Part shown: positions 45,847 to 48,936 of the stretch, in pieces | Layout of the letters: every line of letters begins with the position of its first letter | Numbering within the stretch: the first letter of the stretch is position 1 | Assembly: GCF_013204825.1 (NCBI RefSeq) | Contig: NZ_JABMKV010000002.1 | Span: 558,001-622,000, forward strand | DNA length: 64,000 nucleotides | Source: Pedobacter boryungensis | GTDB taxonomy: Bacteria; Bacteroidota; Bacteroidia; Sphingobacteriales; Sphingobacteriaceae | Direction of reading: 5' to 3' | Translations under genes and position numbers: made by a program | The notes under the pieces: generated by a model | The model's input: the letters and a program-made list of their open reading frames with translations, nothing else | The model's database searches: none | Told to the model about the DNA's origin: nothing

Positions 45847-46470
45847 TTAAAAATCATCAATTATAAAATTATAATTTAATAAATGTTTTCCTACGTTGTG
45901 AAAGTTTAGATATTCTTGTTCATTTCCAAACCACTTAATTACTTCGGTTTTCATTAATCGGGTAGGTTTGTTGCTAATTATCCCTTTATACGAGCTCCAT
46001 TTCCAGTCTTTAAAATCATTAATAAGATTATGCTTCTGTGGATTGCAGTGGATATAATAAATTAAATGTGCTAAATAGTTATCGTCATTTACCAATGCTC
46101 TTTTAAAAGGAGTTTGAAAAAGTGTGCCAGATCTATTTTGCTGTTTGTTAAAAGCTAGGGCATAACTCTGAAAAAACACTCGAAACTGTTTGCTTACTAT
46201 AGAATGAACATCAGTTGCATCATCAATTTTATTTATAAATCTATACTTACTCAAATTTTCATTAACCCTAATTAAAAGATGAAAATGATTATCTAATAAA
46301 CAATAAGCATAGACATCGGCAACATCTGAAAGATAAAGTCGTAATTTTTGTAAGAAGAATTCCTTATTCCCATCATTAAAAAACATTGGTTTTTTATCAA
46401 TTGTACGATTGTAGATGTGATAAAATCGACCTTCTTCAAACCTGGTATAATAATGTTCTTCTTTAGCCAT
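45847..46470 (-). CDS. REP-associated tyrosine transposase (RAYT, IS200-like Y1)
   Basis: A 207-residue Y1 (IS200/REP-associated) transposase. The metal-binding HUH motif is NHFHLL (His62, His64). FFQSYALAFNKQQNRSGTLF carries the expected catalytic Tyr103, and YYIHCNPQKH and DWKWSSYKGI are typical of RAYT-type proteins. RAYTs nick hairpin (REP) elements and are usually domesticated single-copy genes. Four hairpins of one family flank the gene, two on each side, with no IS-style partner gene. The reading frame is intact, so it may be active. Confidence 0.9.
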   Translation of the reverse strand: MAKEEHYYTRFEEGRFYHIYNRTIDKKPMFFNDGNKEFFLQKLRLYLSDVADVYAYCLLDNHFHLLIRVNENLSKYRFINKIDDATDVHSIVSKQFRVFFQSYALAFNKQQNRSGTLFQTPFKRALVNDDNYLAHLIYYIHCNPQKHNLINDFKDWKWSSYKGIISNKPTRLMKTEVIKWFGNEQEYLNFHNVGKHLLNYNFIIDDF

Positions 46471-46490
46471 ATTGAAAAATTGGTTTGCTT

Positions 46491-46520
46491 AATTGTCAAT
46501 CTTTCACAGATTGACAAAGT
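46491..46520. repeat. REP-like hairpin 3 (5' side of RAYT gene)
   Basis: Arms aattgtcaatct and agattgacaaagt with loop ttcac. It starts 20 bases upstream of the RAYT ATG. Confidence 0.8.
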
Positions 46521-46550
46521 TTTATTAACTAATGCAGCAAAATGCTTCAA

Positions 46551-46583
46551 ACTTTGACAATCTAAGAAAAAGATTGTCAAAGT
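46551..46583. repeat. REP-like hairpin 4 (after the SerB-like gene)
   Basis: A perfect 13-bp inverted repeat actttgacaatct / agattgtcaaagt with loop aagaaaa. Compared with hairpins 1 to 3 the 7th arm base and its partner are exchanged, so pairing is kept. It lies just past the stop at 46593 and may also end transcription. Confidence 0.85.
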
Positions 46584-46592
46584 AGATATATC

Positions 46593-47891
46593 CTAATACA
46601 ACACTCTAAATTTAATGGTATGATCTATCTTTTTTAAAGATTTGAATAATTGTTTATCGTATTCGGCATTGATATCTGTTATGGCATATCCCAAAGTGGA
46701 GTTTGTCATTAAAAATTGTCCAACAATGTTGATATTATGCTTTGCAAAAATAGTGTTAATCTGCGCCATAATACCAGGAACATTTTTGTGAATGTGAATT
46801 AAGCGATGTGATTTATCAATAGCTGGTAATTGCAAATTGGGAAAATTAGTGCTCATGTAAGTTGTTCCCTTATTCATAAAATCTATTACACGTTTTGGAA
46901 TAAAGGAAGCGCTTCTTGGATTACTTTTTGGATCATCAAAAACTACAATCCCCATATCGGTGCAAGTTTGAAAAGAGAATTTATTTTTGGCGCTCCCTAA
47001 ATAACCAACGGTTTTAAGTTTAACAGCTCGTTCTAATTTATCATTTTCTATTTTTTCACCATCAGCTAATAAGATCATCCCAACATCAGCAACATATTTT
47101 TCTTCAAAAGAAGATTTATGTCGAATAGAAAAGCCATCTTTTTTAAGTAGCGCAATACTTTCAGTCGGAACATTACCAATGACCAAGCACAAAATTCTGT
47201 TTTTAGGGTAGGAGATCGCCCTTGGCAAATTATTTACATACAAAAACTCATCAAAGCTAGGAGTAACGTGATCGGCTTTTGAAACAATACTTTCTCGAGC
47301 AATATTTTCAGTAAAGGCAAAAAACTTTTTAATTAATCCACTTTCTCTAAGTTGAAAATCCGAATACCCATCACCTATTCCATACAAATCTCCCTTTAAA
47401 TCCATTTGGCGCATTAGCTTGACTTTTCCACCTTCTTCACTTAATGGATTTGCATGGTCGTAATCTATAATCTTTCCATCACCTGTGGTTACAAAAGTGT
47501 TGGCATAGATATTTTCTTTCTTAATGTGATATTGACTTACAACGGGTGTGATAAATTCTTTAAATCCGCCAGAAACAATTAAAACTTCATCTGCATGTTT
47601 TTTGAAAAACGCAGCATTACGAGAAAACGAAGCCGAAACTTTCTTTTTCAACCGTGTAATTAATTGCTTTAAATGATCTTCGTTAGCTTCTAACAATTGA
47701 ACACGTTTTGCTAAACTTTCAGAGAAAGAAAGTTTACCTTCCATAGCTAAATTGGTATAATCTTCAATTTTCTTAAAAATCGCTTCCTTATCTGGATGTT
47801 TGTTTAACGAAATACGGGCCAGTTCATCTAATGCTTCTACTTGGGTAAAAGTGCTATCAAAATCAATAATGTAAAAATTCTGCTGTTTCAT
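46593..47891 (-). CDS. Phosphoserine phosphatase fused to a SerA-like domain with ACT
   Basis: A 432-residue fusion. Residues 1 to about 215 form a HAD phosphatase of the SerB type: DFDST motif (Asp10, Asp12), SGGF and GIGDGYSD. Residues about 230-360 resemble the split substrate-binding domain of D-3-phosphoglycerate dehydrogenase: GFSIRHKSSF, then DMGIVVFDDPKSNPRS, then GTTYMSTNFPNLQLP. The ~180-residue NAD-binding domain between the halves is absent. Residues about 362-432 are a SerA-type ACT domain (HIHKNVPGIMAQINTIFAKH). The phosphatase half is probably active and ACT could bind serine as a regulator. It starts 6 bases after the epimerase stop. Confidence 0.85.
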   Translation of the reverse strand: MKQQNFYIIDFDSTFTQVEALDELARISLNKHPDKEAIFKKIEDYTNLAMEGKLSFSESLAKRVQLLEANEDHLKQLITRLKKKVSASFSRNAAFFKKHADEVLIVSGGFKEFITPVVSQYHIKKENIYANTFVTTGDGKIIDYDHANPLSEEGGKVKLMRQMDLKGDLYGIGDGYSDFQLRESGLIKKFFAFTENIARESIVSKADHVTPSFDEFLYVNNLPRAISYPKNRILCLVIGNVPTESIALLKKDGFSIRHKSSFEEKYVADVGMILLADGEKIENDKLERAVKLKTVGYLGSAKNKFSFQTCTDMGIVVFDDPKSNPRSASFIPKRVIDFMNKGTTYMSTNFPNLQLPAIDKSHRLIHIHKNVPGIMAQINTIFAKHNINIVGQFLMTNSTLGYAITDINAEYDKQLFKSLKKIDHTIKFRVLY

Positions 47892-47897
47892 CTAAAA

Positions 47898-48860
47898 TTA
47901 TTTCAAAGCTTGGCAAACTTCCAGAATGCTCTCTTTTAAAGGTTTAAAATTAATATTAATCGCTTTTTTAACTTTGTCATTGCTGTAATAACTTAAATTA
48001 AAGCTACTTCTAGCCGCATCTCGCGTTAAGGCTGGTGCTTTTTGCGTAAATAGTGCAGCTAGTTTTGCCGCTCTCCAAGCAATGCCGAGCATCCAAGGTT
48101 TTGCTTCAATTTTTGGAGGTTTAATTCCAAATCCTTTAGCAATTTCTGCAAAAAAATCTTTGTAATTTAAATTATCAGCAGATAAGGTATATCGTTCGGC
48201 GGTAATTTCGCTCTGCATTAAAAGTATCATTGCTTTTGCAACATCTGCTACATCAACAATTCCTGTTGCACCATCAGTGTAAAATTTTAAGCCATCTTTT
48301 ACCAATTTAAAAATTGCACCACTACCTTCAAAACCAGCATTTTTACCAATAATTACCGCCGGATTCACAATAACGGCATCTAATCCTTCGGCTATGCCAC
48401 GCCAAACTTCCATTTCACCTTCGTATTTAGAAATAGCATAGGCATGAACTTTCGAATCGTATTCCCAAAAATCTTTCTCGGTAACTTGATCACCTTTTTT
48501 TGCATTTCCCAAAGCCGCGATAGAACTTACATGTACCAATCGAGCTTGATGCTCAGCACAAAGATTTACAATATTTGAAGTTCCCTCAATATTAATTTTT
48601 AGCAATTTAGCTTTATCCTTAGGGTCGAAAGATATAAAAGCAGCGCAGTGATAAACTTGAGTAACGTTTTCAAAAGCATCTGCTAAACTTTCTGTCTCGT
48701 TGATATCAGCTACAAACCACTCTATCAATTTATTTTCTTTTAAAGAATCTGGAATAATTGAGGTAGTTCTTTTTAGTGCTCGGACATTTAAATTTTGAGC
48801 CGTTAGCTGTGTAATTAATTCTGCTCCTAAAAACCCTGTAGCGCCAGTTACCAGTATCAT
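47898..48860 (-). CDS. NAD-dependent epimerase/dehydratase family protein
   Basis: A 320-residue extended SDR protein. I start at the ATG at 48860, which opens directly with MILVTGATGFLGAELITQL, the Rossmann glycine motif; a longer reading would overlap the divergent gene. The active-site triad is suggested by SSIAALG and YAISKYEGE (YxxxK). CAAFISFDPKDKAKLLKINI is typical of dihydroflavonol-reductase-like SDRs. Substrate unknown. It precedes the SerB/SerA-like gene by 6 bases, so one transcript is likely. Confidence 0.88.
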   Translation of the reverse strand: MILVTGATGFLGAELITQLTAQNLNVRALKRTTSIIPDSLKENKLIEWFVADINETESLADAFENVTQVYHCAAFISFDPKDKAKLLKINIEGTSNIVNLCAEHQARLVHVSSIAALGNAKKGDQVTEKDFWEYDSKVHAYAISKYEGEMEVWRGIAEGLDAVIVNPAVIIGKNAGFEGSGAIFKLVKDGLKFYTDGATGIVDVADVAKAMILLMQSEITAERYTLSADNLNYKDFFAEIAKGFGIKPPKIEAKPWMLGIAWRAAKLAALFTQKAPALTRDAARSSFNLSYYSNDKVKKAININFKPLKESILEVCQALK

Positions 48861-48936
48861 ATCATTTTTTTTAGATAGCTCATTAATATATGCGCCCAAA
48901 AATAGATATTTGATGCCAAACATTTATATCGCTTTT

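Follow-up and report, generated by a model that had tools for sequence, protein, structure and literature searches.

Among the described enzymes of serine synthesis, one that is close in composition to the protein considered here is the mycobacterial SerB2, a phosphoserine phosphatase joined to ACT domains, with serine reported as its inhibitor (PMC4270767, PMC10564941). For MtSerB2, the IC50 of L-serine is given as 0.78 uM with the full protein and as 824 uM with the phosphatase domain alone (PMC4270767), and its oligomeric state is described as responding to serine (PMC10564941). The inhibition is, at the same time, called partial and predominantly competitive (PMC10564941), and hence this precedent is a mixed one. 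On the side of the phosphoglycerate dehydrogenases (PGDH), Type III enzymes are described as consisting of the nucleotide and substrate domains only, with no serine feedback regulation (PMC6300728). The ORF reported here combines elements of both sides, as it carries a SerB-like phosphatase in front of a SerA-derived part that has kept its ACT domain and lost its NAD-binding domain.

Architecture of the ORF and its kept and lost residues

The window, by which is meant the whole stretch of 64,000 nucleotides of Pedobacter boryungensis DNA that was analysed, contains the ORF and its upstream neighbour with the following features:

46593..47891, minus strand: whole ORF, SerB-like phosphatase plus SerA remnant with ACT but without NAD domain; ATG start, 432 aa
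47217..47891, minus strand: HAD phosphoserine-phosphatase domain, residues 1-225 (Pfam, structure match, kept residues)
46911..47216, minus strand: first part of the SerA substrate domain, residues 226-327 (phmmer, MAFFT, fold; key residues changed)
46910..46911, no strand: deletion junction, residues 327/328, site of the NAD-binding domain in full-length relatives (193 alignment columns)
46809..46910, minus strand: returning helix of the substrate domain and linker to ACT, residues 328-361 (alignment, predicted model)
46596..46808, minus strand: SerA-type ACT domain, residues 362-432 (Pfam, phmmer, fold)
46728..46790, minus strand: putative serine-site stretch with H368, N370 and N388 (equivalents of E. 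coli SerA H344, N346 and N364)
47898..48923, minus strand: SDR/epimerase-like gene directly upstream of the fusion, 6 bp before its start codon (best NCBIfam model HpnA, below cut-off)

Pfam places a HAD match at residues 9-181 of the ORF (E 7.7e-8), a 2-Hacid_dh match at residues 236-328 (E 4.9e-6) that covers only profile positions 2-98 of 134, and an ACT match at residues 364-427 (E 1.1e-11), and the NAD-binding domain PF02826 is absent from the four Pfam matches obtained at E up to 1. A PF02826 profile search of the genome finds five places, none of which is the fusion ORF. In phmmer comparisons with solved structures, the front of the ORF aligns with phosphoserine phosphatases, while residues 226-329 and 333-432 align in the same order with residues 4-113 and 310-410 of E. 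coli SerA; residues 112-304 of the latter are without counterpart (193 gap columns by MAFFT). An AlphaFold2 model based on 71 sequences (the ORF itself and 70 of the best 80 related loci) reaches a mean pLDDT of 77.4 and a pTM of 0.51. In this model, residues 230-432 superpose on residues 8-410 of E. coli SerA (Z 23.6, rmsd 2.1, 201-202 residues) and the front superposes on human PSPH (Z 17.6, rmsd 2.9, 199 residues), with the predicted placing of the phosphatase part relative to the SerA part not being reliable. The initial annotation had proposed a HAD domain fused to a SerA-like part devoid of the NAD domain, and this is borne out by Pfam, phmmer, MAFFT and the predicted fold; its assignment of the middle region to the SerA substrate domain likewise stands on both sequence and fold, the sequence matches and the fold superposition ruling out a chance similarity of this part. 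As to the two halves of the substrate domain of which it spoke, both are present and in order, but they are very unequal, with about 102 residues in one against a helix-and-linker part of 34 residues in the other.

The phosphatase residues D10, D12, E19, R63, S107, K156, D174 and D178 are all kept in the ORF. The HAD motifs are the elements DxDST, SGG, K and GDGxxD, and E19 and R63 are substrate residues of phosphoserine phosphatases. Among the 73 fusions compared in the next section, all eight residues are kept in 71, the exceptions being L227, in which E19 is changed to D, and L199, which is cut before them. The ORF scores 64.6 bits in TIGR00338 (serB), below the cut-off of 144.15, and hence is not filed as an equivalog of this model, which is counted against the feedback reading proposed below; a full fusion tested also stays below this cut-off (73.8 bits), and the broader HAD-IB model TIGR01488 is passed by the ORF (61.6 against a cut-off of 45). 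In the SerA model PRK11790 the ORF obtains 153.5 bits, below the cut-off of 404. By alignment, R60, S61 and C83 of E. coli SerA are replaced by A276, D277 and G299, and R240, E269 and H292 (E. coli SerA numbering) fall within the missing part. R60, S61 and C83 are changed in 10/10 truncated sequences and kept in 19/19 full fusions, and R60 and S61 are changed throughout the own family (14/14 sequences) and in the fusion of genome G269. Judging from its sequence, the ORF cannot be an active phosphoglycerate dehydrogenase, since the NAD domain and the catalytic residues are absent. The earlier description of the SerA-like part as a non-redox remnant therefore holds, given the absence of the NAD domain and the changes of R60 and S61. 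There is a risk that the SerA-like C-terminal half leads to this ORF being named, wrongly, a phosphoglycerate dehydrogenase.

In the ACT domain, H344, N346 and N364 of E. coli SerA, which we take to be its serine site, align with H368, N370 and N388 of the ORF. Equivalents of these residues are kept in 10/10 truncated and 19/19 full fusions of this alignment, are invariant in the 71-row alignment and are found in 73/73 fusions, thus also in each of the 24 whose dehydrogenase is broken. The ACT motif is kept in 109/109 sequences, of which 80 come from named loci and 29 from the order sample, with some genomes represented in both, and the phosphatase motif pattern matches 108/109, the exception L084 having AGK for GGK with the lysine kept. 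Retention of the serine-site residues fits serine sensing; the triad could also be kept for folding or assembly, and it is equally kept in the fusions with an intact dehydrogenase. In E. coli SerA, the Gly336-Gly337 hinge contributes to passing on the serine signal. The ORF has K360-S361 in its place, and the glycine pair is found in none of the 10 truncated and 19 full fusions compared (0/29), a lack that is counted against the serine-feedback reading. In a search of the genome with the ACT family PF22629, the fusion ORF is the strongest match. The second lies in a frame of 222 aa, whose length and family name may point to an acetolactate synthase small subunit, and two further matches are weaker and below cut-off.

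Conservation of the fusion and decay of its dehydrogenase half

The fusion is matched in 249/250 sampled genomes of the own order, in 16/16 genera and with one match each, and in the order-sample matches listed a single uninterrupted match spans almost the entire query, in stop-free frames of 430-474 aa. The sole genome of the 250 without the fusion, even at E 10, is G388, which is rated 99% complete and has a separate SerA. In the set of close relatives, comprising the best 80 of 228 at 80-98% identity, the frames are 432 (44), 433 (30), 431 (5) or 430 aa (1) long, and the titles name 75 Pedobacter, one Nubsella, one Flavobacteriaceae, two Sphingobacteriaceae and one Bacteroidota bacterium. 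Over 15 close pairs, dN/dS is low in all parts of the ORF (0.016-0.040); dS is near saturation, which leaves 9, 8, 3 and 7 pairs to be used for the individual parts. The domain loss as such might suggest a decaying pseudogene or an assembly artefact, but both are for practical purposes ruled out by the conservation in 249/250 genomes, the lack of stops among the matches listed and these dN/dS values. Of 97 plasmid records obtained in a plasmid search, none covers 80% of the query, and the 20 plasmid matches listed are confined to residues 326-432 or less, corresponding to the ACT end of SerA-like genes.

The SDR/epimerase-like gene, perhaps co-transcribed with the fusion, lies directly upstream of it and in the same orientation in 78/80 loci (best 80 of 228 relatives); it is found in only 7/44 wider-sample loci with 1.5-kb flanks, all of the own family, and hence is no general partner. 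Just behind the fusion, at 45847-46580, a REP-associated-type Y1 transposase with palindrome-like repeats is present (64.5 bits, cut-off 80), with a relative in only 7/80 related loci (best 80 of 228).

In other families of the phylum, a full SerB-SerA fusion in one frame is found in the phylum and class samples, the intact fusions compared having 627-643 aa and mostly giving two match pieces to the ORF as query. The full-length fusions L094-L112 and others share with the ORF the domain order, the junction and the ACT triad, the junction reading SYPKNRI or SYPKSRI among the rows listed and SYPKNRI in the ORF itself. One of them, L096, scores 646.5 in PRK11790 (cut-off 404) over residues 224-629. 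Because of such one-frame full fusions with the same junction motif and this SerA-model score, the truncated form is most likely derived from a full fusion by loss, and not by a fresh fusion, as judged from the sequences.

For a wider comparison, 73 fusions were collected, in which intact was defined as R60, R240, E269 and H292 all being kept. By this measure the dehydrogenase is intact, with its NAD domain kept, in 49/73 and broken or missing in 24/73. The NAD domain is gone in 14 fusions of the own family f1, in that of G269 (family f2) and in two of f63, with borders slightly different among these three; it is shortened by 22-27 residues in five fusions of f60 and one of f86, with R60, R240 and H292 lost in 6/6; and in one fusion of f71, R60 and R240 are changed. 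The own family thus contributes 14 of the 73 rows, drawn from the 249 fusion-bearing genomes of the order sample. Dropped before the count were L200 and L201 (G619, two contig pieces, NAD-less), L225 (G778, cut by a contig end), L228 and L229 (G695, two contigs), L230 (G817, a frame with SerA and ACT but no HAD match) and, from the own family, G302. Matches consisting of a HAD domain by itself or of ACT only, e.g. L113, L114, G568, G587, G724, G747 and G787, were excluded from the outset.

On a tree of the HAD and ACT columns with 72 rows (the partial row L199 of G588 is counted in the 73 and left out here), parsimony requires at least five changes of integrity, of which three are forced by well-supported branches. 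A single clade of all broken forms is rejected (p-AU 0.0002), and a single clade of the NAD-less forms of the own family, G269 and f63 gives a borderline p-AU of 0.042, in tests whose groups were defined by residues and which were run after the tree had been seen. Because this second rejection is only borderline, two separate excisions of the NAD domain are likely but not firm. The direction of change was presumably loss and not gain, considering the universal form of SerA. Relatives thus appear from their sequences to have lost the dehydrogenase part several times, with the sensor kept in every case examined. The truncated fusion of G269 (L093, C1:15838-17130), although from another family, nests in the own family with support 98/93 in the larger tree, an earlier and smaller tree having left its placement open, and gene transfer is likely behind it.

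Changes in constraint accompany the truncation. Identity of the substrate part is 68% among 19 full fusions against 51% among 10 truncated ones, while the HAD domain rises from 54% to 78% and the ACT domain from 65% to 72%, all these values resting on an alignment that contains two rows with faulty starts. As the narrower truncated group would be predicted to give higher values throughout, the lower likeness of the substrate part indicates that it has lost its old constraint.

Separate SerA and the remaining pathway genes

The own genome (3.5 Mb, 9 contigs) encodes a separate SerA of 316 aa, which adjoins a gene that we take from its sequence to be serC-like. This SerA keeps R60, S61, R240, E269 and H292, and an ACT domain is absent from it. 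It thus has the make-up of the Type III enzymes, for which serine feedback is described as lacking (PMC6300728). A separate full-length serA, a possibility that the initial annotation had raised, is thus found in this genome and in 250/250 genomes of the order, hence in all 249 with the fusion. The fusion ORF is the only credible SerB found in the own genome (TIGR00338, 67.9 bits), the other match to this model being weak and partial (20.1 bits, in a 678-aa frame). Elsewhere in the genome, at C2:283179-283436 (L003:1369-1800, minus strand), there is a 143-aa frame in which a D-lactate-dehydrogenase-like catalytic domain is represented by its first part only, with a cysteine-rich tail behind it; this frame is a second hydroxyacid-dehydrogenase remnant without an NAD domain and lies beside a gene which from its sequence is presumably hemN-like.

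Among the 73 fusions, a separate SerA was called where a match to the own SerA with an E-value of at most 1e-60 lay elsewhere than in the fusion, and 12 rows were called as lacking it from best E-values of about 1e-35 to 1e-42. The separate SerA of f61 and of G088 is 43-48% identical to the own SerA, and that of G588 is split over two frames. Broken fusions occur with a separate SerA in 22 cases and without it in two (G269 and G853), and intact fusions with it in 27 and without it in 22, the rows being related to each other. Fusions without a back-up SerA are thus nearly all intact, which fits a redundancy that allows decay. A tree-aware pair test gives no support to this link, since only three supported pairs exist and the SerA status is the same in most. 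The strict rule that broken fusions occur only where a separate SerA exists fails (22/24), and the converse, that a separate SerA implies a broken fusion, is false, as 27 intact fusions coexist with one. G269 has no own-type separate SerA but a 389-aa SerA-family frame. In G853, which carries the half-decayed fusion L190, no own-type separate SerA was found in the genome.

Proposed serine control and relation to known systems

With a probability of roughly 0.6, the fusion is a working phosphoserine phosphatase on which a SerA-derived serine sensor feeds back. The ancestor would have carried the full SerB-SerA fusion still present in relatives. Since the separate, ACT-less SerA beside serC would perform the first step, the dehydrogenase half would have been free to decay, with its catalytic residues lost and its NAD domain excised, while the serine site and the ACT domain that contains it would have been kept, along with as much of the substrate domain as is needed to support them. 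With the protein as a homodimer, L-serine may then bind between its paired ACT domains and reduce the phosphatase activity, and feedback would shift from the first step of the pathway to the last. The last step of serine synthesis is irreversible and hence a sensible control point. From the kept residues and the likeness to SerA and SerB we infer activity on phosphoserine, binding of serine, the dimer and the direction of control. The broader reading, that in several lineages the sensor survived the loss of the enzyme it belonged to and now controls the last enzyme, with the half-decayed forms of f60, f71 and f86 as stages of this process, is about an even bet.

A remnant serving as scaffold only, whose ACT domain dimerises and stabilises the phosphatase without serine control, would agree with the missing hinge glycines, with the substrate-domain part being the fastest-evolving one and devoid of its catalytic residues, and with the model, in which no trustworthy HAD-ACT contact is given at a pTM of 0.51. 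It is not obvious, however, why exactly the three serine-site side chains, which are kept in 73/73 fusions, should be required for this, and in mammalian PGDH, which is described as not serine-sensitive, the ACT residues are altered (PMC6300728), so that the triad can drift when unused; this explanation is accordingly considered unlikely. Action in trans, in which the remnant binds the ACT-less SerA, or SerC, and confers serine sensitivity or channels intermediates, draws on the separate SerA that accompanies the fusion in all 249 fusion genomes and on the lack of ACT in the copy of the own genome. E. coli SerA is, however, described as assembling via its NAD and ACT domains (PMC6300728), and neither pairing is available here; moreover, the fusion and the separate SerA lie on different contigs in the own genome, and the remaining contact surface, the substrate-domain part, is the least conserved. 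We regard this action in trans as improbable. Tethering of a separate SerA, as suggested initially, is likewise less favoured than serine sensing, since the ACT domain is missing from the separate SerA and the NAD domain from the remnant.

For some bacteria, a role as histidinol-phosphate phosphatase has been proposed for SerB-like HAD enzymes (PMC5764234), and together with the score of the ORF below the SerB cut-off this could point to a phosphatase with another substrate, such as histidinol phosphate, or to an ACT domain that senses another ligand. Such a reading is highly improbable, as no other credible SerB-like protein was found in the genome, the best solved-structure matches of the HAD part are phosphoserine phosphatases or so named, E19 and R63 are kept and the ACT domain carries the serine-site triad. 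If feedback by serine on the phosphatase holds, these fusions would amount to a natural and repeated experiment on allosteric control moving between enzymes of a pathway, in which two steps are first united by a fusion, a second gene copy then allows one half to degenerate, and the partner retains the sensor. Since present-day genomes still contain full, half-decayed and excised forms, every stage is open to assay.

With respect to known systems, E. coli SerA (Type II PGDH) matches the ORF in its substrate parts, ACT domain and serine-site residues, in order and in fold, whereas the ORF lacks the NAD domain, the catalytic residues and the Gly-Gly hinge and has an N-terminal phosphatase. We know of no ACT domain in the HAD-dehydrogenase fusion of Dunaliella. 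That protein, a glycerol-3-phosphate dehydrogenase (PDB 6iuy) that is among the structure matches of the ORF, has a phosphatase-like HAD domain and a dehydrogenase in one chain, but the dehydrogenase is of another family. An oomycete PGDH-aminotransferase also fuses enzymes of the serine pathway, but those of steps one and two, and is called bifunctional (PMC2705460). Within the text available from open-licence PMC papers, no description of the SerB-SerA fusion or of its truncated form was found, which does not imply its absence from print. SerB2 has two N-terminal ACT domains, and such a tandem is not present in the ORF by Pfam, which has instead one C-terminal ACT domain from SerA with a partial substrate domain in between. 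Thus, ACT-regulated phosphoserine phosphatases are known already, and a C-terminal ACT domain taken over from a dead SerA would, on the present comparisons, be the new element.
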